A DNA stretch of 46,691 bases from Candidatus Poseidoniaceae archaeon. GTDB taxonomy: Archaea; Thermoplasmatota; Poseidoniia; Poseidoniales; Poseidoniaceae. The notes beneath the pieces were generated by a model that saw only the letters and a list, made by a program, of their open reading frames with translations, was not told the origin of the DNA and ran no database searches. Below are positions 1 to 35,252 of the stretch, piece after piece. The translations under genes were made by a program, and so were the position numbers. How positions within the stretch are numbered: the stretch's first letter is position 1; every line of letters starts with the position of its first letter. The DNA is taken from positions 1-46,691 of the forward strand of contig CALKDX010000024.1 of NCBI GenBank assembly GCA_938084455.1, read 5' to 3'.

Positions 1-215
1 GGCAGAGCTACTGTGAAATTGCTGTGAAGTCTGATACCAAGTGTACGGTGCGCAATCGAAGACTGGGATGACCCTTCGGGGGATGATTCCCGGTGCAAAC
101 GCGCTTAAACCAACCGGTAGGTTATGGGTCCTCGTGCGACGACAGAATGAACACGAGACAACCACCCTTCCGGACAGAAACACCCTGGCGCTGGGTCAGG
201 CCCTCGAGCTTTGCG
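1..215 (+). ncRNA. rnpB: Probable archaeal RNase P RNA, 3' portion (5' end outside window; 3' end approximate)
   Basis: No convincing CDS. Elements occur in the order expected for the 3' half of RNase P RNA: a GGTGCAAA segment (~92-99), ACCGGTAGG (113-121), an AGAATGAA CR-IV-like segment enclosed by a TCGTG/CACGA stem (~132-156), GGACAGAAACACC CR-V-like (~172-184), then a GGGTCAGG P2-like 3' strand. A canonical kink-turn lies at 65-91, as expected for L7Ae-binding archaeal RNase P RNA. Confidence 0.6.
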
Positions 216-327
216 ATGAAATGGGCCGTTACGCGCCGGGGTACAGTTTCTTCTCCTTTCTTCAAACTCATTGTTTCGCTTCGGTGGAAGCGATGCAATC
301 AAAGGGCTGCTGCGTCCACCCAGATTC

Positions 328-2459: not shown

Positions 2460-2469
2460 ACGAAAGTGT

Positions 2470-3036: not shown

Positions 3037-3112
3037 AGGATGCGCCACCTGCCTTTTGGATATAAGCACACCGAATCAACAAAAGAAGGAGTGATATGCT
3101 TGGAAAGTGAAT

Positions 3113-4369
3113 TCAGAGGCGGGATTGATGTCGATAAGGGCGCTCGAAGACCTCTTTCATTTGTGCTTCGGATTCAACCATGATGCCTTCTGCGTCAATG
3201 TTTTGTGGAATGCATGAATTGATTTCCTTGGTTCGCCCATAACGTCCACGGGACACCGTTCGAGCGGTGATCAAACCAAGCATGTCGAGGTTTGAGATTA
3301 AGCCAGAAACTCGACGTTGAGTAAGAGGGTTTTGACGCACATAGCGACAGGCTTGCGCATAGACATCGTAGACTTCACCGGTCTGAATGTTGCGCAATCC
3401 ATTTCGTTCGTTGAGCAGAATTGAGGCGAGAACAAGTTTTTGTTGGCTCGGAAGAGAGGAGAGTACTGGATGCATTTGGTCGGCCTCCAACTGGTGTTGG
3501 GCCATGCGCACATGTGCTTGTGTCACGCATTCATCACCGGATTGTTCTGCTTTCTCAGTCGATACACGCAGCAGATCCAAAGCACAACGAGCGTCTCCGT
3601 GTTCTTGTGCTGCAATTGCTGCACAAAGAGCGATGACGCTGTCATCGAGGGCGCCCTCGATCAAAGCCCCTTGGGCCCTTTGACGGAGGATATTCTGAAG
3701 TTGCATGGCGTCATATGGATTGAACACCACATCGGATTGACCGAGCCGAGAGCGGACTCTAGGGTCGAGGAAGTCAGTGAATTTGAGATCGTTGGAAATA
3801 CCAATGACACACGCACGAGCACTCTTCAGTGAAGCGTTGATGCTGGTGAGGTTGTAGAGCAAATCATCGCCAGCTTTGCGTACGAGATGATCAATCTCGT
3901 CGAGGATAATAACAAACACGCCACCTCGGTTGTCCATTCGACGAACCAATTCTCCAAACACTCGGTCTGTTGGCCAACCGGTGAAGGGGATTTCATCAAT
4001 CTCATGAGATTCCAAGAGGGAATTACCCAAATGGCTGAGGACTCGATACTGCGTGTCAATTTGACGGCAGTTCACCATGATGCTTTGCACAGGGCGGTTG
4101 ATCTCTCTTCCCTTGGCTTCGAGTTCATCGCAGACATAGGAAGTCACTGCTGTTTTTCCAGCACCGGTCACGCCGTACAATGTCATGTTAGATGGAATGT
4201 GTCCATTCAACGCCTCGACAAGGTTGAAACTTAATTTCTCGATTTCATTTTGTCGGTGAGGGAGATTTTTTGGGCGGAAGTCGTGGCGAAGGACTTCCTT
4301 GTCAACGAACAGAGTTTTTCTTGAAAGGAAGTCATCAAAGATGTTTCCGCTCATGATGATTCCTCTCAA
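3113..4369 (-). CDS. cdc6: Orc1/Cdc6 replication initiator AAA+ ATPase
   Basis: LPHRQNEIEKL, Walker A YGVTGAGKTAV, Walker B VFVIILDEIDHL, sensor GISNDLKFTDFLDPRVRSRL, C-terminal winged-helix region. Start may be 4354 (MSGNIF). Confidence 0.93.
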   Translation of the reverse strand: MRGIIMSGNIFDDFLSRKTLFVDKEVLRHDFRPKNLPHRQNEIEKLSFNLVEALNGHIPSNMTLYGVTGAGKTAVTSYVCDELEAKGREINRPVQSIMVNCRQIDTQYRVLSHLGNSLLESHEIDEIPFTGWPTDRVFGELVRRMDNRGGVFVIILDEIDHLVRKAGDDLLYNLTSINASLKSARACVIGISNDLKFTDFLDPRVRSRLGQSDVVFNPYDAMQLQNILRQRAQGALIEGALDDSVIALCAAIAAQEHGDARCALDLLRVSTEKAEQSGDECVTQAHVRMAQHQLEADQMHPVLSSLPSQQKLVLASILLNERNGLRNIQTGEVYDVYAQACRYVRQNPLTQRRVSGLISNLDMLGLITARTVSRGRYGRTKEINSCIPQNIDAEGIMVESEAQMKEVFERPYRHQSRL

Positions 4370-4600
4370 TTCCTACATGACCGAGCAAAGGTCGGATGGA
4401 CCGATGCGCGATATTATGCGTGAGTCCGAGTCCCCCTCATAAGTATGTCCTATGCTTCAATTCACAAAACTGAATTTGGATTGTAAACCCTCTTTGATTT
4501 AGAGGATATAAGGGCGGGTCTAAAATCGAGAAAAATACGAAAAATAACGAAAAAAAATTCGGTAAATTGACCTTATTCCGGAAAACATCAATCCCAGAAT

Positions 4601-5395
4601 TCAATCGATAATATTCCATTTCAAACCGTCCCAACTCAGCCGAAGTTCATCGCGGGCATGGAACACATTGGATGGATGATGTGGGAATGCGTCGGTCACG
4701 GTCGGCGTTCGATTTTCTTGCGGCTCATCGATGTAGGTGTGAGTAATGATCATCGGAAGTTCTGGTAATTGTTTTGCGATTTTTTCAACATCTGATGGTT
4801 TGTGATGATGATCGGATTCGACCCACTGTGGCAGGCCCATCTCCAAGATTGCCATGCTCGTCTGAGCCATTTCATCATACAATGAATCACAAGGACCTGA
4901 GTCACCGCTATGGATGAAACTGGCCTCTTTGCCTGGATTGAAGTGGTAGCCATATGGGTCCACCGATTCATCATGGTGAACCCTAAACCGTCGCCAAGTG
5001 AGTCCGCACTCGAGTTCACCTTCAGGCTCTTCGCGCCATTTGATTTTGGAAAAGACCTCATCGAGGCTTCCAGGGTAGGCCAAGGCACACAACTGCTCCA
5101 AGCGTTGCTTCACGCCCGGTGCTGCGACGATGGTCAGCGGCCTGTTTGAATCCCGATCTGAAATGTACCGTCGCTCGAGCAAAAAGAATGGAAAACCAAA
5201 CACATGATCTCCGTGCACGTGGGTGATGAAGATGGTCTCGATATCGCTGAGAGGTTTTTGGGCCCGTCGAAAGCTGGCTAGAGCAGTTGGTGGGCAATCC
5301 ACCACATGTTTACCGTCAATCATGACAAAGGAGTGATAACGACCATAGGGAAGGAAAGCATTTCCTGTCCCTAGCATCACAACCTCCTGCGCCAT
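4601..5395 (-). CDS. Ribonuclease Z-like metallo-beta-lactamase-fold hydrolase
   Basis: MVMLGTGNAFLPYGRYHSF, ITHVHGDHVFGFPFFL, HSGDSGPCDSLYDEM, TH.Y near C-terminus. Confidence 0.8.
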   Translation of the reverse strand: MAQEVVMLGTGNAFLPYGRYHSFVMIDGKHVVDCPPTALASFRRAQKPLSDIETIFITHVHGDHVFGFPFFLLERRYISDRDSNRPLTIVAAPGVKQRLEQLCALAYPGSLDEVFSKIKWREEPEGELECGLTWRRFRVHHDESVDPYGYHFNPGKEASFIHSGDSGPCDSLYDEMAQTSMAILEMGLPQWVESDHHHKPSDVEKIAKQLPELPMIITHTYIDEPQENRTPTVTDAFPHHPSNVFHARDELRLSWDGLKWNIID

Positions 5396-5477: not shown

Positions 5478-6305
5478 ATGCCAGAGGGCCCTGAGATTCG
5501 AAGGGCTGCAGACCGGATTGGCAAAGCCCTCGTCGGCCAACGCATCGAAGAGGCCTCACTTCCGTATTCCACCTTCATCGGTAGAGAACACCTCATTAAA
5601 GGCCAGACCGTTGTTGATGTGACCAGCGTGGCCAAAGCCATGTTGATTCGATTCCAAAACGGTTGGACGATGTACAGCCATAATCAATTGTACGGTCGAT
5701 GGACGGTGAATCTCAAAACGACTGAAAACAAAATGCGCCGCTCCCTCCGGGCGGAATTCCAGACTGAAAAACACGCAGTACGCTTGTGGTCTGCCACAGA
5801 CATCGATTTGATACCAACTGCGGAAGAGCATCTGCACTCGTTCCTCTCCACATTAGGTCCAGATGTGCTTGAATCGGCAGTCGATGAGGAAACATTGTAT
5901 GCACAATTGGTTTCAAAAAAATGCTTCAGAAAGAAAGCGGCCACGTTGATGCTCGATCAGCGAAGTTTTGCTGGATTGGGCAATTACTTGCGTTCAGAAA
6001 TACTGTTCAGCGCCAACATCCACCCGGATGATCGGCCTTGTGATTTACCCGAAGAACGATTGCGAGCGTGGGCGAATGCCATCAAAAGCGTCACCTGGCA
6101 AGCCTACGAGAAAGGAGGCGTGACGGTTCCCGAGGCCGTTGCTAAAGCGGGAAAAGCAAGGGGTGAGCCAAGACGAACCTGGCGTCACTACGCCTTCTGC
6201 CGCAATGAGCGTCCCTGCCTAAAGTGTGCGACGTTAATCGTTCGCCTCCGCTACGGAGGGAGACGGCTTGACCACTGCCCGACATGCCAGCAAGCTCATC
6301 GCTGA
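5478..6305 (+). CDS. nei: Fpg/Nei-family DNA glycosylase (endonuclease VIII-like)
   Basis: MPEGPEIRRAADRI N-terminus fixes the start, because the catalytic Pro must follow the initiator Met; GLGNYLRSEILFSANIHP; C-terminal zinc finger CLKCATLIVRLRYGGRRLDHCPTCQ. Confidence 0.9.
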   Translation: MPEGPEIRRAADRIGKALVGQRIEEASLPYSTFIGREHLIKGQTVVDVTSVAKAMLIRFQNGWTMYSHNQLYGRWTVNLKTTENKMRRSLRAEFQTEKHAVRLWSATDIDLIPTAEEHLHSFLSTLGPDVLESAVDEETLYAQLVSKKCFRKKAATLMLDQRSFAGLGNYLRSEILFSANIHPDDRPCDLPEERLRAWANAIKSVTWQAYEKGGVTVPEAVAKAGKARGEPRRTWRHYAFCRNERPCLKCATLIVRLRYGGRRLDHCPTCQQAHR

Positions 6306-7951: not shown

Positions 7952-9190
7952 TCACTCCCTGAGGTAAGCCTCAATCTTCTGAGCGGTCGTTTCTGCGGAG
8001 GAGAGAGCACCTTCGACGCTACCATGCACGGTATGATCTCCGCATTCAAATCCATTCGAACGAGGCGTTGTTCCCAAATTAATTTCTTTTCCGATCTCCG
8101 GTAGGGCGTGTTGGATGTGCTGCACTGCGAGGAGACGCCAAGCCTTGCTTACCTCAGGGTACCAAGCCGAAAGTTCACTTCGGACAGCTGCTTCCACTGC
8201 GGAAGCATCGCTCAATCCTCTGGCGTCGGCTCGCTCCCCTACAACCGTGATGGTGATCAGCGAACGGCCCTCTGGGGCATAACTTGGTTGGACATCTGAG
8301 GGCACAGCCAAATGCGCAATCAAGCCCTCTGAGTTTTTGACCCCTGCATTCAAAAGAATATGATTGGTCCTGAGCGGAGAGGATTCAGCATCGAAATGAA
8401 GCGTCCAAACATGGCGTTTTTCCTCACTCATTGCAGGATTGAATGCTTTGACGATGACATCAAAGGAATGTTCTTCACCGTTGACCACCATCTCGGTGTC
8501 ATTGCGTATTTCGACTTTGGAATTCAAATGAATCCGGTCCTGACCCAGCCGTTGAGCCAGTTGCTTTGGTGCGGCAGCAATCCCCTGCTTTGGCAGCACC
8601 ATTTGGCCTTCTGACATCATTCGGAAGACGAAGCGAAACATCCGCTCATTGGTTCGTAAATCGTCTTCAAGGAAGATTCCTGAAAACAATGGATGAAAAA
8701 ATCGCTTAATCATTTTCGCCGAGAAACCCCGACCTTCTAGATACTGCAAAGCTGTGTTGTGTTCTCCAGTGAACACACGACTCACCTTTCCTCGGCGAAC
8801 CGCAAATCGAAGGCGCGCTACTCGAAGTAGGTCAAAGGGTGAGGCGAACCTGTTGAGTCCACTCAGAAGGCCCTGAAACGGACGCCGAAAAGGATCGGCC
8901 ATGGTCCAAAATTTGGCACCGTTGTTCTTTTGCTCGACAACGATTGCTCCTGGTTCAAACGCCTTGGCTTGCATGGTTTGGAAATTGAAAGCACGTTGCG
9001 AAGCAGGATAGCCAGTTTGCATCACATGGAACCCGTGGTCGAGCAAAAAGCCGTCAACGACGTCGGTTTGCATGCGACCGCCAATTTGACTTGACCGTTC
9101 GAAAACCTGCACATCATGGCCAGAGGCTTGCAGCAATGTTGCGCATCTAAGACCGGATAGACCTGCACCGACAACCGCAATTGAAGCCAT
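7952..9190 (-). CDS. FAD/NAD(P)-dependent oxidoreductase (amine oxidase / phytoene desaturase-like Rossmann flavoprotein)
   Basis: MASIAVVGAGLSGLRCATLLQASGHDVQVFERSSQIGGRMQT dinucleotide-binding motif. ORF opens at 9265; the start at 9190 is preferred. Confidence 0.82.
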   Translation of the reverse strand: MASIAVVGAGLSGLRCATLLQASGHDVQVFERSSQIGGRMQTDVVDGFLLDHGFHVMQTGYPASQRAFNFQTMQAKAFEPGAIVVEQKNNGAKFWTMADPFRRPFQGLLSGLNRFASPFDLLRVARLRFAVRRGKVSRVFTGEHNTALQYLEGRGFSAKMIKRFFHPLFSGIFLEDDLRTNERMFRFVFRMMSEGQMVLPKQGIAAAPKQLAQRLGQDRIHLNSKVEIRNDTEMVVNGEEHSFDVIVKAFNPAMSEEKRHVWTLHFDAESSPLRTNHILLNAGVKNSEGLIAHLAVPSDVQPSYAPEGRSLITITVVGERADARGLSDASAVEAAVRSELSAWYPEVSKAWRLLAVQHIQHALPEIGKEINLGTTPRSNGFECGDHTVHGSVEGALSSAETTAQKIEAYLRE

Positions 9191-9200
9191 CATTCCACCC

Positions 9201-10418
9201 TCAAATCTTGAGTTTCGTTTGGAATTCTTCCAAGAAAGGACCCATCGATTGGATGAGCAAGGCATCCGGATGGGTGCGAATCACCAATCCATCAAGGTAC
9301 ATCAATGCGCGAATAATGGGGAATGCTTCTTCTCCAAAGGTGGCGCCAGCATGCTCCACAGCGGCCTTTACCGTCCCCATCATGATCCGAGTGAGGCTTT
9401 GTTCTCCAACGGGTTTCTTTTCGAAATCGGTGTAGATTTCCGTCATTGTGCTGTAATACTTGGCTAACCTTTTGGGGTTGGGTTTCAAATCAGTCATTGT
9501 CAGGAGGGCATCAAATGCTTCTTGCATTTCTTGTCGAGATAGATGGTCGAAGAAATGGAAGAGTGCATGAGCGACTTTTTTCGGCGCATGGCAGATTGCT
9601 CCGTTGTCAATGAATACGAATTTTCCATCATCATCAACGATGCAGTTTCCGGGATGGAGATCACCGTGGAAGGTGCCGATGCCAAACAAGTAAGCGCCGT
9701 GAATCCTGAAGAATTGTAGCAAGAAATCCCAAGTGAGTGCTTTTTCTTCAATCCCCTCTTCAAGGGACATGCCTTGGATGAATTCTGAAACGAGGATGTC
9801 TGAATTCGACAACTCCGGATAATAAATCGGGAATCGCAGAAGGTCCATGCTGAAGTCGTCTTTCAACGAATCTTTGATTGCAGCCAGTTCATCTGCTCCC
9901 TTGATTTCATTTCTGAGGTCAAGTTCCCTCAAGGTGTAGTCTGCGACGTGGTTGATCAACGCCATTGGGTTTCCTACCTTGCGGAGTTTTGGCGCAAAGA
10001 TGAGGAAAATACGAAGCCATCGACGCATGCGGACGACTTCTTTTTTGAATTCCACAGCGTTGGTTTGTTTGATGAATTTGATGACCACTTCTTCTCCAGT
10101 CTTCAGTTTTCCACGATGGACTTGCCCAACTGATGCTGCTGCGAGTGGCTCATCGTCGATTGACTCGAAGGCATCCATGAATCCTTTTGGTGCTTTTTTG
10201 GCGATGGTTTCGTGAAGGTTTTCAGAAGCAATCGATGCTGCATGTTGGTAGAGTTGTTGGAGTTGTCTAGCTTTTTCAACCCCCAATAAATCTGGTCGAA
10301 GCGCGAAAATCTGCGCTAATTTCACCGCTATGAGGCCTTGACGTTGAATCCAATCAAGATCCGCTGGTTTTTTCCTGAGAATTTGACGCATGAAACGGAA
10401 AAACGTCAACATTCTCAT
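9201..10418 (-). CDS. ABC1/AarF/UbiB family atypical kinase
   Basis: QRQGLIAVKLAQIFALRPDLL (KxGQ-like), AAASVGQVHRGKLKTGEEVVIKF, GTFHGDLHPGNCIVDDDGKFVFIDNG. Confidence 0.9.
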   Translation of the reverse strand: MRMLTFFRFMRQILRKKPADLDWIQRQGLIAVKLAQIFALRPDLLGVEKARQLQQLYQHAASIASENLHETIAKKAPKGFMDAFESIDDEPLAAASVGQVHRGKLKTGEEVVIKFIKQTNAVEFKKEVVRMRRWLRIFLIFAPKLRKVGNPMALINHVADYTLRELDLRNEIKGADELAAIKDSLKDDFSMDLLRFPIYYPELSNSDILVSEFIQGMSLEEGIEEKALTWDFLLQFFRIHGAYLFGIGTFHGDLHPGNCIVDDDGKFVFIDNGAICHAPKKVAHALFHFFDHLSRQEMQEAFDALLTMTDLKPNPKRLAKYYSTMTEIYTDFEKKPVGEQSLTRIMMGTVKAAVEHAGATFGEEAFPIIRALMYLDGLVIRTHPDALLIQSMGPFLEEFQTKLKI

Positions 10419-10456
10419 GGCGGGAAGTCATCGGTTTCGCTTATCAAGAGATGTTT

Positions 10457-11848
10457 TCACTCAAGCAGGTCAACATCGGATTCATCAATGAAGATGAGGG
10501 TATAACGCCAGGCGTCTTTCCCTTCTGCTTCTCGACGAATTCGAACATTCCCGTTCTCTGGATATCGCGCCAACAACGCACCTTCGATGATTCCGTCATC
10601 CAGTTGCCAGAGCGGCAGAATATCATCATCGTCAGTTGCCGGATGGGCGAGGTTCACGATAATGTGGAAAAATGGATCTGCGTTGTAATCGAGTTCACCG
10701 AGCCCGGCATGCTCCCACCAATCCATCAGTTCGTTGAGGAACTCCACGTGGCCTTCGATTTTGCGAAGGCTGAACGACAATTCCTCTCCTATGCGTTGAC
10801 CAACTTGCCTTAGCATGGTGCCAAGGTCAATGCCCAGTTCATGTAGGCTGCTCATTCGGCCGTCTTGAAGGGCGGCTCGTGCTTGGTTGATTTCACTGCT
10901 CGAAGCGAGGAATGATTCTGGGTTGAATGGGACATCATCTTCGGGCAAATCCTCGCTTACTTTGAGTGCCATGCGGAATTGTTCCAAAAATGAGCCTTGG
11001 CCAACCGTAAGTCGTAAAGGATCGACGATTCGTTCTTCGGTGAATCGCTTTTTTGCCGCCTCAATATCAATCGCTTTGTTCCAAATGGCGTTGACGAAGT
11101 CGCTGTGTGAACTTGCAAACACTTCGGAATTGACAACCAACGCAGCATCGTCACGGCCTCGTCCGACGGGGTTCTCTTCGACGTGAAGGAATTGAATGAC
11201 GTTTCCAGTGTCTTGAAGAACGCCAAGGGAGTTCACTTCGTCTGAGTGTCGGACAGCAATCGATTCGTGGAGTTGATCATAGAAACGTACGGTTCTTCGG
11301 TCAAGTTGAGCCAGCACAGTGACAATGACGCCACGCTCAGCCGCTAGGTTGACTTCCTCAAGCCCAACAGATCTGCAAAGATGGAGGATTCCAAACCGTC
11401 CAAGGAGAAGGACGAGTCGTTCTTCGGCTTGCGCAGCAAACTCTCCGATTCGCTTGTGAATGTGCTCCCTTCCTTTGAGAACCGCAAACTTAGCATTCGT
11501 ATCTTCGGTAGCCTCTTCGGTGGAGTCCTCGTAATCAGAGGTCGCTCCGGACATAATTGAATCAAAGGCTTTGGAAGTTCGCTCAATTCGTTCTCTTTGT
11601 TCATTGAGCAAGCGTTTGAACAACACAGGCAACGACGAGCAGGAGAATCGCATGGGGCGATCTGCGGTGACTGACACGAGTCCGATTTCAGTCAACCGGG
11701 AAAGAGAATTGTACGCATCTAAGCGATTCGTACCGAGTTCTTTGGCTAATTCACTCGCTTTGAGTTCTTTGGAGGAGGAGAGGATCACCAAAGAGCGAGC
11801 CTCGCGCTCGGAGAGTCCCGCATCTTCGAAGAGTTCGAACCAGTTCAT
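10457..11848 (-). CDS. TrmB-like winged-helix transcriptional regulator with long C-terminal domain
   Basis: N-terminal AGLSEREARSLVILSSSKELKASELAKELGTNRLDAYNSLSRLTEIGLVSVTADRPMRFS; TrmB-like effector region follows. Confidence 0.7.
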   Translation of the reverse strand: MNWFELFEDAGLSEREARSLVILSSSKELKASELAKELGTNRLDAYNSLSRLTEIGLVSVTADRPMRFSCSSLPVLFKRLLNEQRERIERTSKAFDSIMSGATSDYEDSTEEATEDTNAKFAVLKGREHIHKRIGEFAAQAEERLVLLLGRFGILHLCRSVGLEEVNLAAERGVIVTVLAQLDRRTVRFYDQLHESIAVRHSDEVNSLGVLQDTGNVIQFLHVEENPVGRGRDDAALVVNSEVFASSHSDFVNAIWNKAIDIEAAKKRFTEERIVDPLRLTVGQGSFLEQFRMALKVSEDLPEDDVPFNPESFLASSSEINQARAALQDGRMSSLHELGIDLGTMLRQVGQRIGEELSFSLRKIEGHVEFLNELMDWWEHAGLGELDYNADPFFHIIVNLAHPATDDDDILPLWQLDDGIIEGALLARYPENGNVRIRREAEGKDAWRYTLIFIDESDVDLLE

Positions 11849-12324
11849 TGCATTGAGCCCCCAGAGGAGAGCTCACTGAAGGCATCGAGGATTCGGGCTA
11901 CGTGGCGGCGGGGCCTAAACAGCCAATCGTAGCAGTAATGCACGGTTCGATCAGGCCCGATCAAGAATGAGGATTTTGCTGGGAATCGGCCCAAGAATAC
12001 GGGGACCCCGAAGGCATCAGCGACTTGGCGTTCAGGGTCGCTCAACAATGGGAAGGGGAGGTTGAGATCTTCTTTGAACCGGCGATGGTCTTCAACAGAA
12101 TCTTGGCTGATTCCGATGACTTCGACAGGAGGTGTCAATGATTGAAACAGGTCATACTGCTCTTTGAAGGTCAAGCACCCTCGCTTGCATGTGGGAGAAC
12201 CGTCTTTTGCATAGAAGAAAACGACCTTCCATTTGCCGTCGAAGTCAGAGAGCGAGAAGGTTTCTCCGCTTGATGACGGGAGCGTAAATTCCGGGGCCTT
12301 CTTACCTGAGAGTTGATTCGCCAT
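11845..12324 (-). CDS. Peroxiredoxin (AhpC/TSA, BCP-like)
   Basis: GKKAPEFTLPSSSGETFSLSDFDGKWKVVFFYAKDGSPTCKRGCLTFKEQYDLF; GISQDSVEDHRRFKEDLNLPFPLLSDPER. Confidence 0.88.
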   Translation of the reverse strand: MANQLSGKKAPEFTLPSSSGETFSLSDFDGKWKVVFFYAKDGSPTCKRGCLTFKEQYDLFQSLTPPVEVIGISQDSVEDHRRFKEDLNLPFPLLSDPERQVADAFGVPVFLGRFPAKSSFLIGPDRTVHYCYDWLFRPRRHVARILDAFSELSSGGSMQ

Positions 12325-12362
12325 GACTTCGCCTCAAATTCTGCCTTTATAGCATGGGAGGG

Positions 12363-13001
12363 TTAAGCCTGTTCGGGAATAAGATGCCCCATGCGCTTTT
12401 GTTTGGTGGAGAGGTAGTGATCGTTCAGCTTGCAACGTCCGACCAAGTGAGGGACCCGCTCGTGAACTTTAATGCCGTTTGTACGCAAACCTCGAACTTT
12501 CAACGGGTTGTTGGTCATGAGACGGACCTCGTCAACTCCAACGCTGGTGAGCATCTCAGCGCAAAATGAGTATTTGCGAGCGTCTGCTGGAAGGTTTAGA
12601 GCGAGGTTGGCATCGAGGGTGTCAAGCCCGCGATCTTGCAGGGCGTAGGCCCGGATCTTGGCTTCTAAGCCAATTCCCCTACCTTCCTGCCGCATGTAGA
12701 GAACGGCCCCGGAGCCTTCTTCCTGGATGCGTGCCATTGAAGCACGTAGTTGAGGCCCACAATCGCACTTCAACGAGCCGAATGCGTCGCCTGTGAGGCA
12801 CTCGGAGTGAATGCGTACGATTGGGACGGTTGACGAGTCGTCGAGGCCAACGGAGAGAACTGAATGTTCACTCCCCTTATCATCAACGAACACCCTCATT
12901 CGGAAGTTACCGTATTCGGTTGGTAGGTTAGCATCTGCTTTGATGTGTGCAGCGAGTGCAGTGTACTGGGACATGACGCTGAATCCCGCCAGTTGCATTA
13001 T
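12363..13001 (-). CDS. ribA: GTP cyclohydrolase II
   Basis: [59 protein letters not shown] opens at 13076; start at MQLAGF (about 13001) or MSQYTA is plausible. Confidence 0.9.
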
Positions 13002-24700: not shown

Positions 24701-26929
24701 ATGGCCGGCGATGAAAAGACAATGTCCTTGCGAGTTGCAAAAGCGATCCCCTCTGATGTCGGCCACGGTCGTGCTCGAATTTCCGGGGAAAATGACCTAG
24801 GCCTCAAGCCTGGGGACATCGTCGAAATCAAAGGCGATAAGCGCTCAACTGCCGCCATTTACTGGCGCAGCCGTCCAGAGGACACGAAGATGGAAATCAT
24901 TCGAGTCGATGGAATCATCCGTAAAAATGCAGGCGTCAGCCTCGGTGACCGAGTCACCGTTTCAAAAGTCGAAGCAAAAGAGTGCACGAAGCTGGTGTTA
25001 TCACCAGTGATGGCCAACAAACAGAAGGTCAAGTTTGGCCCAGGCATCGAAGGCTTTGCTCGTCGAGGACTCTCAAAGCGTCCTGTCGTTCAAGGCGACC
25101 GCATCTTCATCCCCGGAATGACCCTCTTTGCTGAAGCATTGCCCTTCGCAGTGGTAAACACTGTCCCCAAGGGAATTGTCAAGGTCACCAACGACACGGA
25201 CATTGTCATCAAAGACGAAACGGTTGATGATGAAGATGCTGGACAATCCGAAGGCATCACCTACGAAGATGTGGGTGGTATCGGCCAGCAATTACAAAAG
25301 GTTCGAGAAATGATTGAATTGCCACTCAAGCATCCTGAACTGTTCCGCCGTCTTGGCATCGACCCACCAAAGGGTGTTCTCCTGCACGGTCCTCCCGGTA
25401 CAGGAAAAACAATGATTGCAAAGGCAGTTGCAACCGAAGTGAATGCTCACTTTAAGTCGATCAACGGGCCTGAAATCATCTCGAAGTATTACGGTGAATC
25501 AGAAAAGCAACTGCGCGAGATTTTCGATGAAGCCGCAGAAAACTCGCCCGCAATCATCTTCATCGACGAAATCGATTCAATCTGCCCTAAGCGCGAAGAC
25601 GTCAGCGGTGAAGTTGAACGACGCGTCGTGGCTCAGATGCTGACCCTCATGGATGGCATGCAAGGACGCGATAACGTGGTTGTCATCGGCGCCACAAACC
25701 GACGAGACGCACTCGACCCTGCGCTTCGCCGACCTGGGCGATTCGACCGTGAAATCGAAATTGGAGTGCCTGACCGAGACGGGCGAAGTGAGATTATGGA
25801 TGTCCACACCCGTCAAATGCCAATCTCAGAGGATTTCGAAATCAACTGGGTCTTGGACAACACCTACGGTTTTGTTGGAGCTGATCTCGCCGCACTTGTT
25901 CGTGAAGCGGCCATGAAGGCTCTTCGCCGATACTTGCCAGAAATTGAACTCGATGAAGAGACGATCCCCCCCGAAGTGCTGGAAAAGATGGAAGTCCGAA
26001 TGGACGATTTCAAAGAAGCGATCAAGGACGTCGAACCATCGGCCCTGCGAGAAATTTACGTCGAAATCCCAGCAGTCACATGGGAAGAAGTCGGTGGCCT
26101 AGAAGAGGTCAAGGACCGATTGAAGGAATCTGTTGAATGGCCATTGACTCAACCGGAACTCTTCGAGCACTTTGGCATTAAACCACCTCGTGGCATCGTC
26201 CTCTTTGGTGCACCAGGTACTGGAAAGACGCTGCTTGCAAAAGCCATTGCGAACGAGGCACAAGCCAACTTCATCAGCATCAAAGGTCCGGAACTGATTT
26301 CGAAATGGGTCGGTGAATCCGAACGAGCAATTCGAGAAATTTTCAAGAAGGCGAAGCAGTCCGCCCCGGCGATTATCTTCCTCGACGAATTTGAGTCGAT
26401 TGCGAGCATGCGTTCATCGAACTCAGATGGATCAGGCAGCGATGTTTCAAACCGCGTGGTGAACCAACTGCTCGCCAGCATGGATGGTGTCGAATCTCTT
26501 GATGGTGTCATCATCGTCGCAGCGACCAATAGGCCTGAGATGATCGACCCCGCATTGCTTCGCAGCGGTCGCTTTGAGCGAGTGCTCCATGTCCCACCGC
26601 CAGACCTTGGCGCTCGTGAAGCAATCTTCAACATCCACAGCGAAGGTATGCCACTCTCCAAATTCTCCATGAAGGACATCATCGGTGGCCTTGAGGGATT
26701 CACAGGTGCTGATGTTGAAGCGGTCTGTAGGGAAGCTGCACTTATTTGCATGCGTGCAAACAAAAAGAAGGTGACCAAGAAACACTTCGAAGAAGCAATC
26801 AAGCGGGTGCGACCAACCGTCACCCCCGAGATGTTGGACTACTATCAGAAGATGGAAACCAGACTCACGAGTGGTTTGTCAAACATCAAGCGCAACCGCG
26901 ACACGAGTTTTGGCATGGAATCAATGTGA
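24701..26929 (+). CDS. cdc48: CDC48/VCP-like double AAA+ ATPase
   Basis: CDC48 N-domain ([18 protein letters not shown]), two Walker A motifs ([28 protein letters not shown]), two SRH regions, ITYEDVGGI and [13 protein letters not shown] linkers. Start may be 24722. Confidence 0.96.
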
Positions 26930-27000
26930 TGCTTGCATTGCAGGCGACGCATTCATGATGCGGCACATATTGGCAAGGTCACAGAAGGAGGGAAAAGCCC

Positions 27001-27240
27001 GTGGCAATTTTCGCAAGAGAGATCATCGGCAGGGATGTTGTCGATTCACACCAAGAACGATTGGGCGAATTAAAAGACGTCGTCTTTGACACCCCAACAG
27101 GTGCTATCCTTGCGCTGAGGGTCAAAATTGAGAACGATATTGATGTCTCAAAACTGCCTTGGGAGATGCATGACGGCTTGATTCAAATCCCCGTGGAAGA
27201 AATCAACCGCATAGCGGCTAAAATCCACCTTAAACGCTAG
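27001..27240 (+). CDS. PRC-barrel domain protein
   Basis: 79 aa with GTG start, preceded by GGAGGG; FAREIIGRDVVDSHQERLGELKDVVFDTPTGAILALRV. Confidence 0.8.
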   Translation: MAIFAREIIGRDVVDSHQERLGELKDVVFDTPTGAILALRVKIENDIDVSKLPWEMHDGLIQIPVEEINRIAAKIHLKR

Positions 27241-27278
27241 TAAAACCCATATTAACCAAGATTTCTGATGTTTTTTTG

Positions 27279-27291
27279 AACCATCATGGTT
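27279..27291. repeat. Perfect palindrome AACCAT-C-ATGGTT upstream of the DUF4350-like gene
   Basis: Read directly; sits just after a T7 tract (27271-27277) downstream of the PRC-barrel gene. Confidence 0.5.
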
Positions 27292-27377
27292 GAGCATTTG
27301 TTTGACAAGCAGTCACAACCTTCTAAACCGATGCGAGGGCGTCCTCGTGTCGGAATCTCGCTCCAGTTGGCCCCCTC

Positions 27378-28985
27378 ATGTTTAGCGACCGCAATTTCAA
27401 CTACCGACGAATCGGTCTTCAAGCCGCGTTTTGGTTTGTGATGTCTTTGCTTTTGCTTACTGTTTTGTTGAATTTTGTCAACCTTTCTAACACCAATCAA
27501 TTGTCCGCCTACGACGATGATTGGGACGACATGTCAGCATTCAGGGCCGATTTGAAAGACGCTGGAATCAAAACCAGTTCCTTGGTCAGCAGCCCGTTGC
27601 TTCTCGCAGACATCGAAGATCCACGCAACACGACCTACATCGTTGCAGGCGTTGAACGGGACACGCTCTCTCTGCCTCAATTTGATGAGGACGGATTCAT
27701 CACCATCGCCGCTGATGACGGATACTCTCCATCTGAAATTGATGCCATTGTTGAATTTGTGGATGCAGGAGGAACAGCATTGGTCCTTGATGACTATGGA
27801 TTCGCAGGAACCATTGCCGAGGCCTTTGGAGTGCGTTACACTGGTTACCAGCTCTACGACACAACCTATGTTGAGGAATTGGATTACAACTTCATTTGGA
27901 TGTGCGTTCAAGCAACACCTTGTGGCATGAATGGTAGCGTGCTTGACGATGCGACCATCTCTGTTCACGACCGCTGGAGTGGGAACCTTGGAGAAGGCGA
28001 ACACCCGTGCAGCATCCTCGACGGGCAAACCATGGCCATCGAAGACGCTGGCTTGTGCGCCCAACATTGGACCGCAGGTGAAATTCAGTACAACGCCACC
28101 TACCAAATGCTTCTCAATGACATCACTGCCTTGGAACTCATTCCTGGCACCATCGGTGCATTACCAGATGTTTCAGTTCGTGCAGTGACCAGCAACGAAG
28201 CTACCGTTGACGTCAACGGTGACGGTGAAATTTGGGTTGGTAACGAACAAAATTCCGAAACGCCCGATTTGTGGGGCCAATTCAACCTCAGTTTCGAAGC
28301 ATGCGCTCGAAGCACATGCGACCCAAATGATGGAGGACGAATCGTCTTCATGGCCGATGGGTCGGCTCTGATCAACGCCATGTATGATTATGAAGGATTC
28401 AATGAGGGCGAGTATGGTCCAACCAACAAGACAATTCCTGCAAACGACAATCGCAAGTGGGCCTTGGACTTCATCGCAGAAGCGGTGATGTCTTCTGACC
28501 CCACTGAAATTGGGCAGGCATCAGATACGGCAATGGTTATTTTTGACGAATCACGTCACCCACAAAACGCACTTCTCGCTGATTCCTACAACACAGTGTA
28601 CTTCCTTTTGGTCTACTTTACTGGAGAAGGACTGGCTATGCTCTTGCTCTTCTTGGTGCTGTTCGTCACCTTCGAAGCCGTGTTGTTGAAGAAGCGCGAT
28701 CCAGAACCATGGCGCCACGTATTCAGCATCATCTACTACGGGTTTGGTGATGCCAATCGGTACACATATTACGCCAAGAGCGAGAAGATTCGCCAGGTGT
28801 TCCTCTCCAAAGTTCGCAACCAAAACGGACTGACTCGAGAAGAGTTCCATGCCATGCCGGCAAAAGATCTCGTCGCCCTCATCAACGACCCAGTGTTGGC
28901 TAAGTTTGCCATTGAACCCAGTAAATACTCACTGGAACAAACCGTAGCGGTCGTAAAACGAATCAAAGCGTGGGGCAGAACCTGA
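27378..28985 (+). CDS. DUF4350-like membrane-anchored protein
   Basis: N-terminal TM, SPSEIDAIVEFVDAGGTALVLDDYGF (DUF4350-like), C-terminal TM and cytosolic region; next to a DUF58 gene. Confidence 0.65.
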   Translation: MFSDRNFNYRRIGLQAAFWFVMSLLLLTVLLNFVNLSNTNQLSAYDDDWDDMSAFRADLKDAGIKTSSLVSSPLLLADIEDPRNTTYIVAGVERDTLSLPQFDEDGFITIAADDGYSPSEIDAIVEFVDAGGTALVLDDYGFAGTIAEAFGVRYTGYQLYDTTYVEELDYNFIWMCVQATPCGMNGSVLDDATISVHDRWSGNLGEGEHPCSILDGQTMAIEDAGLCAQHWTAGEIQYNATYQMLLNDITALELIPGTIGALPDVSVRAVTSNEATVDVNGDGEIWVGNEQNSETPDLWGQFNLSFEACARSTCDPNDGGRIVFMADGSALINAMYDYEGFNEGEYGPTNKTIPANDNRKWALDFIAEAVMSSDPTEIGQASDTAMVIFDESRHPQNALLADSYNTVYFLLVYFTGEGLAMLLLFLVLFVTFEAVLLKKRDPEPWRHVFSIIYYGFGDANRYTYYAKSEKIRQVFLSKVRNQNGLTREEFHAMPAKDLVALINDPVLAKFAIEPSKYSLEQTVAVVKRIKAWGRT

Positions 28986-28991
28986 GGTGAG

Positions 28992-30248
28992 ATGATGTGG
29001 ACTCGTAAGGCTTCATTCACATTCACTGGCGGTATTGCCCTCGTGCTGATCGGCATGATGATTTCAAACCTCCAAATGATGATTCTTGGGCTGACATTTG
29101 TCGCTTTCATCGTCGTCAACTCATGGATTTCCGGGCACGGTGAAGTTGAGGTTCAACGCACGCTCTCTGCAGACAACCTGTACAAGGGCGACGATCTCTA
29201 TGTCGAACTGCTGGTGACCAATCGCTCAAACAGAAACACACAGTTGTTGGAGGTTTACGACAACATTCCTCACGAAATGAAGTTGAGAAGTGGACTCAAT
29301 CAAATGCGTCTTAACCTCAAACCAGGAGAAAGTGCACGAATCCGCTATGTGTTGCGATGCCCGCTTCGTGGTCACTATTCCATCGGTCCTGTCTCGTTGC
29401 GTTCACGCAACACATTCAACCTCGGTGTCGATGAGATGTACGTCGACCACCACAGCGACATCGTGATCTTCCCACAAATCAAGGAAGTTGAGGAGGCTTT
29501 CTTGCGCTCTCGGACACCAAAGATGTACACAGGGGCAACAACCCTTCGCACACCTGGCCAAGGTTCAGAATTTTACTCCTTGAGGGAATATGTCCCCGGT
29601 GACCCGTTCAAGAACATCAATTGGAAGGCATTTGCTCGGACTGGTGAACTCATGGTCAATGAAAAGTGCCGAGACGCAGTTACTGATCTCTACTTATTGC
29701 TTGACAGCCGAGACATCTCAAGAATTGGAACCGTTCTAAAGAATCCACTCGAAATGGGCACGGTGTCTGCAGCCAGCCTTGCTGCTTTCTTCCTCAAGCG
29801 ACGAGATTCTGTTGCTTTAGCTATTTTTGATGAAAAATTATCCTACTTACCTCCAGACACCGGTGACAAGCAGTACTTCAAAATCCTCAGCGCCCTTGCT
29901 GGCGTATCCCCCAAAGGGGCCATGCCACTGCAAGCGGTGACAAACTCCCTCAGCGGTCGCTTCAGCCGCGGTAGCCCAGTGTTCATCATCTCCTCATGTG
30001 AAGGTGACGGAACAGTGCCTGCGGCCGTTCGTGATCTTGTTGGTCGAGGCCACGAAGTGACTGTTCTTTCACCGTCAAGCATTGATTTCGAGCGACTCGT
30101 AAGTCGTATTCCACGCATGTCCTATGAAGTGCTCAAGCTCGAACGGCAAAACAGACTCACCACGTTAGCAGGTTCCGGCGCACAAGTCATTGACTGGATG
30201 CCAGACATGGATTTGTCTCAAGCGTTGATGCAGGTAAGGGGGTACTGA
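28992..30248 (+). CDS. DUF58 domain protein
   Basis: GQGSEFYSLREYVPGDPFKNINWKAFARTGELMVNEKCRDAVTDLYLLLDS is the DUF58 signature. Confidence 0.88.
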   Translation: MMWTRKASFTFTGGIALVLIGMMISNLQMMILGLTFVAFIVVNSWISGHGEVEVQRTLSADNLYKGDDLYVELLVTNRSNRNTQLLEVYDNIPHEMKLRSGLNQMRLNLKPGESARIRYVLRCPLRGHYSIGPVSLRSRNTFNLGVDEMYVDHHSDIVIFPQIKEVEEAFLRSRTPKMYTGATTLRTPGQGSEFYSLREYVPGDPFKNINWKAFARTGELMVNEKCRDAVTDLYLLLDSRDISRIGTVLKNPLEMGTVSAASLAAFFLKRRDSVALAIFDEKLSYLPPDTGDKQYFKILSALAGVSPKGAMPLQAVTNSLSGRFSRGSPVFIISSCEGDGTVPAAVRDLVGRGHEVTVLSPSSIDFERLVSRIPRMSYEVLKLERQNRLTTLAGSGAQVIDWMPDMDLSQALMQVRGY

Positions 30249-30249
30249 G

Positions 30250-31473
30250 ATGGCGGATGATGTTGGTCTACAACGAGACGTCACCATCGGCGGAGAATAC
30301 CGTCCGAGAACACTCCATCTCAAATTGCTGCGAAAGCAATGGCAAATCATCGCCCTTCAAGTCATAGCAACAGTTGCTTTGGTTGGGATGTACCTTGAGG
30401 TGGTCTCAACCTATGTTGTAGGTTCAATCGACCACACCATGCTGTTTGATACGATTGAGGTGCTCATTGGCCAGCAATTGCCGATTGGAGACTTCTTGAC
30501 GGGTGAAGGAAACACCGGGCTTGGACGGTTCTCTGTACCGCTCATCCTCGGTATGTCTCTTGGTGGCAGCATGGCTTTCCTTGCCTTCCAAACTCCAAAG
30601 ACGCAGCAACGAATCAAACTTGGTTTCATTGTCACGTTGATCGTTGTCTTGGTTGGCCGCTTGGTTGTTTCATGGGGCTTTGGAATGTTAACTTCTTTCG
30701 ATCTACGACTTCCAGATGATGGTGAACTCGCCACCCTTGAATGGCCATTATTGATGATCATGTCATTGATGATTTTGTTCATTTATCTCCTACCAGTCAT
30801 CATGGGCACTCGAGGAATATGGGGGCTCTCAAGACGCTCCATTGCCTGGTCGATTGGATTCACATTGTTGTTCCTTGGCATTCACGCAATCCTCGCCTTC
30901 CCGCTCATCAATGGACAACTTGGCTCTTACGGTGAGGCGCTTGCCACCGTGGAAACACAATTTACCGATCCCACAATCGGTTTGTTTGGTCTGATGCTCG
31001 TCACTCAAGAGCAATTTGCTTTGATTATGATTGCCGTGCTCATTATGGTGTTCCAAGAATCATCCTACGGCGTAATCCGTTACCTCGAGTACGCTTACAG
31101 ACTCCCTGAATCGTGTAAGAGAGACCCTGAGTATGTTCGCCAAATGGATAATGTGCTCAACACTCACCTCAAGCATACCTTTGGTTTCCTAGGACTGACT
31201 GGAATCGCAACCATGGTTGCACTTGGATTCCATAGTGTCTTGTTGGATATCGTTGAAGGATCGACTGGAAGTCAGTGGGCAGGCCAAATTTCTGAATCAA
31301 TCGAATTATCCCTGACCTACGGCCTGGTGATTTCAGCACTGATGTTTTTGAGCATCATGGCGTTGTTGCGATTCTTTGTCCCATGGGAGCGGGTTTGGGG
31401 ACTGGTGAACTCCGTACGTGGAGAAAACCCTGCACAACCTGCTGCTGCAACAAAGGATTTCGTTGAAATCTAG
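30250..31473 (+). CDS. Multi-pass membrane protein of unknown function
   Basis: Many hydrophobic helices; follows the DUF58 gene directly (1-nt gap). Confidence 0.65.
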   Translation: MADDVGLQRDVTIGGEYRPRTLHLKLLRKQWQIIALQVIATVALVGMYLEVVSTYVVGSIDHTMLFDTIEVLIGQQLPIGDFLTGEGNTGLGRFSVPLILGMSLGGSMAFLAFQTPKTQQRIKLGFIVTLIVVLVGRLVVSWGFGMLTSFDLRLPDDGELATLEWPLLMIMSLMILFIYLLPVIMGTRGIWGLSRRSIAWSIGFTLLFLGIHAILAFPLINGQLGSYGEALATVETQFTDPTIGLFGLMLVTQEQFALIMIAVLIMVFQESSYGVIRYLEYAYRLPESCKRDPEYVRQMDNVLNTHLKHTFGFLGLTGIATMVALGFHSVLLDIVEGSTGSQWAGQISESIELSLTYGLVISALMFLSIMALLRFFVPWERVWGLVNSVRGENPAQPAAATKDFVEI

Positions 31474-31724
31474 ATTTGATCCGAAAGGGTCCGTTGCAAA
31501 ATTCGACCCACGAGTTCTGTTGACAGCATCAGCACCAATGGCAACACGCACCAACCGGAGATGGCTGCGAGCCAAGTTGGAGAATCAACGGTTTCCATCA
31601 CAACTGGTTGAAGGAAAAAGAAGCCCACGATCGCACCAAGGAACAGAAGCCGTTCAATGAACATTGGATAACTTCTGCCGGAAGATTCGTCCCTTGCCAA
31701 AAGTGTTGTTGCTTCATCCGCCAT
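31470..31724 (-). CDS. Small two-TM membrane protein in the Roadblock/coiled-coil operon
   Basis: 84 aa: FIERLLFLGAIVGFFFLQPVV... and WLAAISGWCVLPLVLMLSTELVG; 9 bp downstream of the coiled-coil gene. Confidence 0.65.
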   Translation of the reverse strand: MADEATTLLARDESSGRSYPMFIERLLFLGAIVGFFFLQPVVMETVDSPTWLAAISGWCVLPLVLMLSTELVGRILQRTLSDQI

Positions 31725-31733
31725 ACAACCACA

Positions 31734-34700
31734 TCACATGTCAAGGTCCGACAGGCGGGCTTCCAATGCTGCAAGCGCAGGGTCAGGTGCAGCGGTTGGC
31801 GCCGGCTCCTTACGGTGCTTCCAAGATGCGTCAAGTTGGGCCAATTCGGCTTCAAGAGCCGCACGCTCATCGCTTTCATCAAGGCCATCTCGGTGCTCTA
31901 AAGCAGGTGAAGTTGGTGCAGTCTCCGCCCCAGGCGCAAACGCATCATCAACTGGAATTGGCATTTCCTCCCAGCCTTGTTGGTCCGGGGCGCTTGGCTC
32001 TGGCTGAGCGTCAAGCGAAACAGGAACTTCGCCTGCCAGAGAGGACTCCATGGTCACGATCATTTCTTCTTCGACTGGTGTGCGTTGATTCGCCGGGATG
32101 GAATCTCGTTCGTATGGTAGGAGGCCATCGCGTTGGAACTCCCAAAGCATGCCTCTTGGCACACCATCTGCTAAGCCAGATGCATCGAGTTGTGTGATTA
32201 ATTCCTCAAGTACGCGAGCTGTGTCTTCAAGCGCAACTGCCTCACCAGCATCGCGCTGGTCGGCTTCGAGGTAGATGTCGTCAAGAGCAACTTGGATCAG
32301 TCCGCGAGTGGACTGTGCGATGCTTGGAAGTGCTTCAGGGCGGGTGCAATTGTTGAGCAATGCCTCCACTTCTTCAGGTGGCGCTCCAAGCCGAACAAGT
32401 TGTTCCAATACGTTGCGGAGCCGCCGAAGCATGGTAATCGAGCGGTCGTAGTCTTCCAGTAGATGTTCGAGGTCCAGAACAACATGACCTACCGTTTCGC
32501 CAAGTTGGTGTTCTAACCGTTGTTGGACCGACCAGCGCGCTAGACCACGAACGGCTCCTGCCGTCTGAGGAACTTGTCGTTCGAGCAAGGTCATGACTTC
32601 ACTTGAAAGCAAGTGACGTGGGGTTGCTGCAACATGATCAACGGTGGATTGGATGACTTGCAAGCCGCGCTCAACCGCTCGGTCCAAGAGGGTCACTGAA
32701 TAGCCGAGGGCGCGTGCATGTTCCAAGCGTTCGAGCACCGGTCCAAGTCCATCGAAGGTGTGAGCATCATCGAGCAGGGCTTGAGCAAGCGGTTCATCTG
32801 CAAGTCGGGCTCGAAGATGCTCGGCTTCTTGGATATCTGCAACTGCCGCCTCATGTGCTTCCGAGAGTGCTTCAGCTCTTTCAATCAATGAAGCGAGTTC
32901 TGCCTCTGCGTGGCCTCGACGGGCCCCTAAGTCGCCCAACTCTCGTAAGATTTGGCGGCGTTCACCCATAAGTTCCCGCAATTCGGCTTGAACTTGGGCC
33001 TGACGTGCCTCATCACTTGCAAGGCGGGTTCGATCCTCCTCTGCTCTGCGTCGACTTGCTTTTGCCTCAGATTCGATGGCTGCAAGTTCTGCTGTGTTGG
33101 ATTTTATTTTCTCATCAAGAAGCAATACCTCTGCTTGAGCACGAGCGTGTCGTTCCCGAGCCGCAGCGACTTGTTCTTGGAGAACATGAAGACGGCGTTC
33201 ATCATCTTCAGTTTGTTGACGAACGGTGGACAATTGCTGACTGTGGGTGTTGAGTTCTGCATTGAGTTCTGCCTCCTTGAGGGACATATCTTCAATGGCA
33301 TTTCGCAGTGATTCACTGGAATCCGCATCGCCAAGCGCCTTAGCAAGTTCCGCTGCTCGCTCAGAAACTTGATGCTCGAGTTCGTTGACTCTTCGAACCA
33401 ATCGCTCCGCCCTGTTTTCTGCCTGTTCTGCAGAGGCTTGTGATTGAGCGAGTTCAATCTGCATGGTGCTGAATTGCTTGTGTGCGTCCTCAAGCGAGGA
33501 AGTTGATTCCGAGCGGGTTTCCGACGCCTCTCGAGCGATGATTTGTGCTGCATTTGTTGCAGTATTTGCCTCATTCAAGCGGCTTTTAAGGGCAGCCTTC
33601 TCTTTTTCGAGTTCGTCAATTCGGTGATCTGCGGCCTCCAATCGTCGGCGCAATCCTGTGTCCACGGCTGATGTTTGAGGCACTTCCCCACCCAAGCCAC
33701 CGCTGACGACATCGACTGTTTCAGAGAAGATTGCTGTCGCTCGACTCTTCCGAAGTTGCTCCATTCCAATCTCGAACCCAAACAAGTCGTTGAGTTTCCC
33801 TTTGAGGGTTGCACGGCGGCTCTCAGAACGCGTCCGCAATGTCACCAAGAGGTCATGGAAATCATCGAGTTTGAACTCCTCGACGGTTCCTGACTCTCGA
33901 GAGATGATGCTCCCCGCAGGAAGGCGGTGAAGTTTGAGCACACGGGTGGAATCAGTGAAGGTGAGCATGGCTTCTTCGAGCGATTGTCCCTCTGGAGCAG
34001 AAACACCAACAGGGATACCGCGCGCCAAGAGCACAGACACAGCGGTTGAGGATTGTCCAGATTGCAAATGACCTGTCACCTGTTCGTTGACACCAGCCGC
34101 CAACATCGAGAGAATTGCATCAGGGCCGCCACGGCCTTCACGCAGAACAAAACCTTCCGGAATTGGTCCGCCACTGGCGCCAATGGCTCCAATCTCACCA
34201 TCGAGGACTGCTGCCACCGCCGAAATCAAGCGGGCGTGATTGGTGTTCGCTTCAGTCCAAACCCCCAACGAAACGTCGCCGGCTTTCGCTAAGAGAAGAG
34301 AACCGTCTTCATGGTGCATGGTCCAATGGCTTCCATTTGAGAGCCCTTCGTCATCAAGGACACTGATGCTCATTGCTTCGAGGGTTGAATGAATTTCTTG
34401 CGCTAGAACCTCTGGCGTATTCGGCAACTCACCGACGCTGTCGATCAGCATGCCTTGGTCAATGGCGACAGCCCCTCGCACTGTGTCCCTCTCGACAACA
34501 GCCCGGAGGACCGAAGACAGATCGCGAGCCAGAAGCCGCAACACAGCATCGCCACGTGGAAGAAGTCCTTGTCGGTCTGAGGGGTGCTCAAACGCCTCGG
34601 GAATGGCCTCGGCAACGCTACCAAGGCCGGAGAGAGAGTATTCCCCTGCAATGAAACGGCAGTGTTCTTTTCCTTCAAGATCTTCAAGCCGGAGTCTTGC

Positions 34701-34904
34701 TTCTTTTCCAGCAAGGAGAAGCTTTCCCTTTCCAGATTCAGCCACCCAGGCGACAATGCGTCCTGCACGGACGAGGCGGTGGCCGGTGGGGGTTTTTCTC
34801 CGTCCAATCCATGTGCTGATGACACCATGGTCAAAGGGTTGGATGGTGCCTGCTTCAACAGAAATAGCTGCTTCTATTGGCGTTCCTAAAGGTAGGTTAA
34901 ACAT
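31734..34904 (-). CDS. Large protein: N-terminal Roadblock/LC7-like (possibly PATAN-like) domains plus long coiled coil
   Basis: RGAVAIDQGMLIDSVGELPNTPEVLAQEIHSTLEAMSISVLDDEGLSNGSHWTMHHEDGSLLLAKAGDVSLGVWTEANTNHARLISAVAAVL fits a Roadblock/LC7 pattern. About 350 residues of heptad-rich coiled coil follow. No Walker A motif. Confidence 0.7.
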   Translation of the reverse strand: MFNLPLGTPIEAAISVEAGTIQPFDHGVISTWIGRRKTPTGHRLVRAGRIVAWVAESGKGKLLLAGKEARLRLEDLEGKEHCRFIAGEYSLSGLGSVAEAIPEAFEHPSDRQGLLPRGDAVLRLLARDLSSVLRAVVERDTVRGAVAIDQGMLIDSVGELPNTPEVLAQEIHSTLEAMSISVLDDEGLSNGSHWTMHHEDGSLLLAKAGDVSLGVWTEANTNHARLISAVAAVLDGEIGAIGASGGPIPEGFVLREGRGGPDAILSMLAAGVNEQVTGHLQSGQSSTAVSVLLARGIPVGVSAPEGQSLEEAMLTFTDSTRVLKLHRLPAGSIISRESGTVEEFKLDDFHDLLVTLRTRSESRRATLKGKLNDLFGFEIGMEQLRKSRATAIFSETVDVVSGGLGGEVPQTSAVDTGLRRRLEAADHRIDELEKEKAALKSRLNEANTATNAAQIIAREASETRSESTSSLEDAHKQFSTMQIELAQSQASAEQAENRAERLVRRVNELEHQVSERAAELAKALGDADSSESLRNAIEDMSLKEAELNAELNTHSQQLSTVRQQTEDDERRLHVLQEQVAAARERHARAQAEVLLLDEKIKSNTAELAAIESEAKASRRRAEEDRTRLASDEARQAQVQAELRELMGERRQILRELGDLGARRGHAEAELASLIERAEALSEAHEAAVADIQEAEHLRARLADEPLAQALLDDAHTFDGLGPVLERLEHARALGYSVTLLDRAVERGLQVIQSTVDHVAATPRHLLSSEVMTLLERQVPQTAGAVRGLARWSVQQRLEHQLGETVGHVVLDLEHLLEDYDRSITMLRRLRNVLEQLVRLGAPPEEVEALLNNCTRPEALPSIAQSTRGLIQVALDDIYLEADQRDAGEAVALEDTARVLEELITQLDASGLADGVPRGMLWEFQRDGLLPYERDSIPANQRTPVEEEMIVTMESSLAGEVPVSLDAQPEPSAPDQQGWEEMPIPVDDAFAPGAETAPTSPALEHRDGLDESDERAALEAELAQLDASWKHRKEPAPTAAPDPALAALEARLSDLDM

Positions 34905-34913
34905 GATATCATC

Positions 34914-35252
34914 TCATTGGGGGGTGGTTGCTAAGATTCTCCGATCTCGGTCAAGGGCATGGCGCCATCGTGCTAAACGGCCACCGTTTCCTGACAACGC
35001 TACAATTCGTGTTGGTGATGCTACATCGATCATCAGACGTTGGTCACCTTCGCACCAAACTTCGTGCACCGTGCCCAAACCAAGGGCATCCGCAGATTCT
35101 AATGCTGCCGAAATCACATCGACAACATGCTCGAAAGGAGGCATCTCCCCTTCTTCGCCGACGCTTGCAAGAAGCGTCCCACTGTCATCGATGAGCATAG
35201 CTTGCTTTACGCCATTAAGGCGATACAAACCGGCCAAAGCGCGTTGCAACAT
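34914..35252 (-). CDS. Small Roadblock/LC7-like protein
   Basis: 112 aa: LNGVKQAMLIDDSGTLLASVGEEGEMPPFEHVVDVISAALESADALGLGTVHEVWCEGDQRLMIDVASPTRIVALSGNGGRLARWRHALD. Confidence 0.65.
   Translation of the reverse strand: MLQRALAGLYRLNGVKQAMLIDDSGTLLASVGEEGEMPPFEHVVDVISAALESADALGLGTVHEVWCEGDQRLMIDVASPTRIVALSGNGGRLARWRHALDRDRRILATTPQ

Follow-up and report, generated by a model that had tools for sequence, protein, structure and literature searches.

Three genes in a MAG of the Poseidoniaceae (Marine Group IIa) encode a free Roadblock/LC7-like protein (RBL), a large protein with a predicted Roadblock domain of its own followed by a long coiled coil (BIG), and a small two-TM protein (TM). They are real genes and form one cassette, which is likely an operon. 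Tentatively, and with a likelihood that we place just short of even, RBL-BIG-TM is read as a scaffold that is tethered to the membrane, probably has no need of a small Ras-like GTPase, and perhaps serves the neighbouring DUF4350-DUF58-8TM complex. The three genes lie on the minus strand of the window—the whole 46,691-nucleotide stretch of DNA that was analysed (Table 1)—and are separated by 9-bp gaps, with ORF positions that match exactly those given in an earlier note made from the letters of this DNA. The TM gene and the convergent 407-aa gene share their last 4 bp, and no Rfam features are found within the window.

Table 1. Features of the cassette, of the BIG protein and of the neighbouring candidate partner genes.
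Feature	Position in window	Strand	Description
RBL	34914..35252	(-)	Free 112-aa Roadblock/LC7-fold protein (profile-based); first gene of cassette
BIG	31734..34904	(-)	1056-aa protein; middle gene of cassette
TM	31470..31724	(-)	84-aa two-TM protein; last gene of cassette
BIG residues 1-105			Alpha/beta domain
BIG residues 120-234	34203..34547	(-)	Predicted Roadblock domain (AF2 topology and Foldseek)
BIG residues 250-330			Alpha/beta domain
BIG residues 414-702	32799..33665	(-)	Coiled-coil rod (long helix and heptad period)
BIG residues ~706-930	32115..32790	(-)	Most conserved helical domain (conservation profile)
BIG residues 930-1056			Acidic tail
407-aa ~8-TM protein	30250..31473	(+)	8 hydrophobic segments; convergent neighbour, candidate partner
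DUF58 protein	28992..30248	(+)	Pfam PF01882, E 6.5e-19; two N-terminal TM segments; candidate partner
DUF4350 protein	27378..28985	(+)	Pfam PF14258, E 6e-10; TM segments 16-34 and 419-437; candidate partner

Conservation and distribution of the cassette

An ORF matching the RBL profile lies directly upstream of BIG in all 50 loci that contain the BIG 5′ end. The TM gene, scored as present where BIG is directly followed by an ORF of 60-130 aa with two or more TM segments, is found in 48 of the 51 loci that contain the BIG 3′ end, usually after a gap of 8-11 bp; beyond it, all 51 of these loci have the 8-TM gene, oriented convergently to BIG. Linkage of the three genes, the absence of which had been named beforehand as refuting, is thus conserved. 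The three loci without a TM call are L008, in which BIG itself is interrupted, L060, which carries ambiguous bases, and L064, in which no two-TM ORF is present between BIG and the convergent gene (5706-5947) and TM has possibly been lost or frameshifted; L065, from the same genus, has one. L008 belongs to a single-contig MG-II genome (CM001443.1), and here BIG (8001-11173) and the 8-TM gene (11443-12661) are each split by apparent frameshifts, BIG being read as pieces of 947 and 111 aa that overlap by 4 bp; the frameshifts are perhaps assembly errors.

Relatives of BIG were recovered by a contig scan in 24 loci at 62-98% identity, all from Poseidoniales/MGII records, while RBL has relatives in 68 of the 76 Poseidoniaceae genomes sampled and in 20/20 of the most complete. 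A profile of the BIG C-domain matches 169 of the 289 genomes of the class, including 137/146 Poseidoniaceae MAGs, the nine misses being incomplete MAGs. Within the sister family (MGIIb), BIG is confined to four of 11 genera (g15, g17, g19, and g22), and among 296 genomes sampled across the phylum no match lies outside Poseidoniales. Two equal-scoring BIG copies are present in one MGIIb genome (G091:C4:2466-3179 and G091:C8:10191-10904) and G500 also holds two; those in G091 could be genuine paralogues or could stem from mixed strains or contig duplication. In the cassette-less MGIIb genera, CDC48, DUF4350, DUF58, the 8-TM gene, and the NcsA-like gene keep their order, and RBL, BIG, and TM are all missing. 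These genera are monophyletic in most gene trees, with the exception of pyrB, and the absence is consistent with a single loss, gain being the alternative.

Distribution also bears on the proposal that the cassette helps to place or assemble the archaellum, which serves adhesion in Poseidoniales. Archaella are described in all Poseidoniaceae genera and in half of the Thalassarchaeaceae genera (Rinke et al., PMC6461757), and the two distributions overlap in part; however, by PF01917—a coarse test of archaellin co-occurrence, as this model may also catch other pilins—the MGIIb genera g14 and g21 have archaellin without the cassette, and g17 and g22, also of MGIIb, have the cassette without archaellin. 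On this discordance an archaellum partnership was rejected, and we hold it the least probable of the rivals considered. The suggestion in the earlier note of a membrane-linked polarity, scaffold, or motility-like complex survives in part: a membrane-linked scaffold fits, and the motility-like element finds no support in the distribution of archaellin.

Roadblock domains, coiled coil, and conserved helical end

RBL scores 22.5 bits against Pfam Robl_LC7, just under the 23-bit cut-off, and the same model matches 14 of 27 members of the RBL family. A profile of the family retrieves Asgard Roadblock structures first from the PDB (7f8m, E 3.3e-7; 7yh1, E 2.3e-5), followed by MglC, CvnB5, and MglB. 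At the level of profile comparison, membership of the Roadblock/LC7 superfamily is confirmed, and the 112-aa protein may be called Roadblock/LC7-like, as had been claimed by eye. A PF03259 profile search of the source genome (E<=1e-3) nonetheless finds nothing, because both Roadblock domains fall below the reach of the Pfam model. The same genome carries a second divergent Roadblock-like gene of 105 aa at L143 (G000:C47) 5792-6109 (+), just upstream of a gene for a 298-aa coiled-coil protein; weaker relatives of its product occur in G011, G046, G018, and G084, and no GTPase gene was recognised by eye in its vicinity.

The Roadblock domain within BIG is undetected by Pfam and was identified from predicted structure. 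An AF2 model of residues 1-400 (mean pLDDT 81, pTM 0.73) displays an a-bb-a-bbb-a topology at residues 120-234, that is, helix, two strands, helix, three strands, and helix. Foldseek returns 118 PDB matches to this model at E<=1e-3, the best 50 of which are all Roadblock, MglB, Ragulator, or dynein light chain proteins, headed by 7yh1 (E 4.3e-6, TMt 0.76); the full-length model likewise gives only Roadblock matches among those listed. A sequence profile of residues 120-234 finds CvnB5 best (E 0.006) and then only Roadblock proteins. The profile-profile similarity between the RBL and BIG Roadblocks is weak, a point against the pairing of the two that is proposed below. Structure prediction of the large protein, the check that had been proposed, therefore recovers a Roadblock fold, which is confirmed for the model; the domain does lie in the N-terminal third, although at about residues 120-234 and not 130-260. 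That third also holds more than had been described, namely two further alpha/beta domains, the second of which (250-330) has no Pfam match and shows a b-a-bbb-a-b order that by eye resembles DUF4388/PATAN domains, an assignment that we do not claim.

The long coiled coil expected beyond the Roadblock domain is borne out as a helix of some 290 residues, modelled with one short break at 522-528 and carrying a hydrophobic period of 3.50 residues (power 12.3 vs 6.3 for the 95th percentile of shuffles). It is this rod that gives BIG its best NCBIfam matches, which are to SMC coiled coils (E 1.5e-7) and invite comparison with an SMC/ScpB-like chromosome organiser lacking an ATPase of its own. The SMC/Rad50 matches, however, span the coiled coil alone (~421-702) and reach 28-30 bits against cut-offs above 560; Pfam finds no SMC/ABC ATPase domain in BIG, the ends of which are a predicted Roadblock fold and an unrelated helical domain, and BIG has a membrane protein as its partner in the cassette. 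An SMC identity was rejected, as the similarity is confined to the coiled coil, and a chromosome-organising role is very improbable.

A structural alternative takes the rod at face value, as a cytoskeletal or intermediate-filament-like element that would give the cell its shape or hold a surface structure in position; the Roadblock domains would then be there only for oligomerisation. The long heptad rod with globular ends, the near-universal presence in MGIIa, and the membrane partner all suit such a role, but the best conserved part of BIG is the C-terminal helical domain and not the rod, thereby indicating a specific binding surface. Mean column identity in the family is 0.70-0.88 over residues 691-930 vs roughly 0.45-0.73 elsewhere, and the most conserved segment, at about 695-935, averages 80%. 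We consider a purely structural rod unlikely. No PDB relative of the helical domain was found by sequence at better than E 0.35, and Foldseek of the full BIG model gives no match to it among the matches listed.

TM has the two membrane segments ascribed to it, at residues 20-38 and 50-68. The favoured scaffold could then be assembled as follows. Roadblock proteins are generally homo- or heterodimers and can be platforms for larger complexes (PMC10933270); RBL and the BIG Roadblock domain would together form the usual Roadblock dimer platform, and BIG itself may dimerise through its coiled coil, predicted to be ~43 nm long at 0.15 nm per residue. The Roadblock platform would then sit at one end of the resulting rod and the strongly conserved helical domain at the opposite end, with the two-TM protein presumably anchoring one end of the scaffold at the cytoplasmic membrane, where it would serve the convergent DUF4350-DUF58-8TM membrane complex.

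Small GTPases and the candidate client

A small Ras-type switch protein is the usual partner of Roadblock domains. Genomes were searched with the Pfam models PF00025 (Arf), PF08477 (Roc), and PF00071 (Ras), which divergent GTPases could escape. Neither PF00025 nor PF08477 matches in 14 genomes from both families, including one single-contig genome, while in the positive controls they match 12/14 and 11/14 control genomes, respectively. PF00071 has no match in the genome of the window (G000) or in the single-contig genome G011, and gives weak hits in G046, G009, and G018 that lie inside longer ORFs of 372-678 aa. Strong Ras matches are seen in G007, at G007:C7:14637-15146 and G007:C15:807-1445, that on C15 being in pieces, one of them with stops; these are probably eukaryotic contamination of the MAG.

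The earlier statement that no Ras-like GTPase is encoded in the window thus extends to whole genomes, with no Arf/Roc and no convincing Ras match among those tested, and the proposed co-occurrence with MglA/Ras-like GTPases, as checked, fails to appear. A Ras-like partner is unlikely; a standard MglA/Ragulator reading is therefore unsupported, and the result speaks against a GAP role of the MglB kind. The corresponding rival is a polarity system under GTPase control, akin to MglA/MglB or Ragulator, whose GTPase gene lies elsewhere and has diverged beyond the reach of Pfam models. It draws on the frequency with which Roadblock modules regulate small GTPases and on fold matches that include MglB and Ragulator subunits; against it stand the searches above, with their working controls, and the lack of a GTPase within the cassette, whereas 390 of 449 prokaryotic MglA genes are coupled to mglB (PMC4316618). 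On balance we judge such a system improbable.

The likeliest client of the scaffold is perhaps the convergent DUF4350-DUF58-8TM membrane complex, whose genes the cassette always faces. Branch ratios of the cassette-less lineages, in which higher values denote more divergence, are 2.33 (1.87-2.75) for DUF58 and 1.59 (1.33-1.90) for the 8-TM protein, while the adjacent CDC48 (0.91) and NcsA (0.96) show no extra divergence; pyrI, pyrB, and DUF4350 lie at about 1.3. In matched genera, the unlinked, MoxR-linked DUF58 paralogue reaches 1.70 (1.24-2.31) vs 2.41 (1.80-3.28) for DUF58, with overlapping intervals. As a partner signal, this shift in sequence divergence of DUF58 and the 8-TM protein is suggestive only, being weakened because the unlinked paralogue also shifts, pyrI and pyrB reach ~1.3, and the absence of the cassette looks like a single event.

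A paralogous DUF4350-MoxR-DUF58-TM cluster is located elsewhere in the genome, at L152 (G000:C23) 63-5093 (+), with no cassette beside it within the stretch read. No MoxR gene adjoins the DUF58 gene of the window, which is flanked by DUF4350, the 8-TM gene, CDC48, and others, and the window cluster looks like a MoxR-less duplicate of that at L152. In the loci examined, CDC48 holds a syntenic position upstream of DUF4350 and DUF58 (window positions 24701-28985), as a possible AAA+ partner of the two.

Relation to known systems

On a bolder proposal, RBL-BIG-TM would count as a Roadblock machine of a new class. It would be a coiled-coil scaffold, tethered to the membrane and independent of any GTPase, in which one Roadblock module is free and the other built in, and it would organise a cell-surface complex of the DUF58 type in Marine Group II archaea. 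We regard this as rather unlikely as it stands. In the literature searched, no published description of the cassette was found. The cassette marks a component of cell biology that is nearly universal, and apparently undescribed, in an archaeal group that is among the most abundant in surface oceans, and Marine Group II is described as being without cultured representatives (PMC6461757).

The MglA/MglB polarity module of Myxococcus and Thermus also has a Roadblock-fold protein in a gene cluster, and the BIG Roadblock gives fold matches to MglB; unlike that module, the cassette has no MglA-type GTPase that was found, fuses its second Roadblock to a coiled-coil protein, and includes a membrane protein partner. 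Asgard Roadblock proteins (7f8m, 7yh1, and 9jue) are the closest solved sequences to RBL and, among the matches listed, the closest folds to the BIG Roadblock, but these are single-domain structures from hosts with many small GTPases, whereas the cassette encodes a scaffold with no detected GTPase. Ragulator/LAMTOR resembles the cassette as a multi-Roadblock platform at a membrane, the membrane site of the cassette being predicted; it differs in that the cassette has neither a detected Rag-type GTPase nor a LAMTOR1-like tether and possesses a long coiled coil. MoxR-DUF58 membrane clusters share the DUF4350 and DUF58 genes that adjoin the cassette, but MoxR is absent from the cassette locus.

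Orphan prokaryotic MglB/Roadblock proteins likewise come from Roadblock genes uncoupled from a GTPase gene, a category that comprised 328 of 749 in a 2014 survey, none of them then characterised (PMC4316618). Roadblock proteins that lack a coupled GTPase have thus been known before, and the cassette departs from these orphans in having two Roadblock modules within three conserved genes that include a scaffold and a membrane protein. The literature searched yielded no description of a free and a built-in Roadblock joined with an extended coiled coil, a helical domain specific to the order, and a two-TM protein of their own. As a clean, conserved case in genomes in which no Arf/Roc was found, the cassette makes a Roadblock role without a switch testable.
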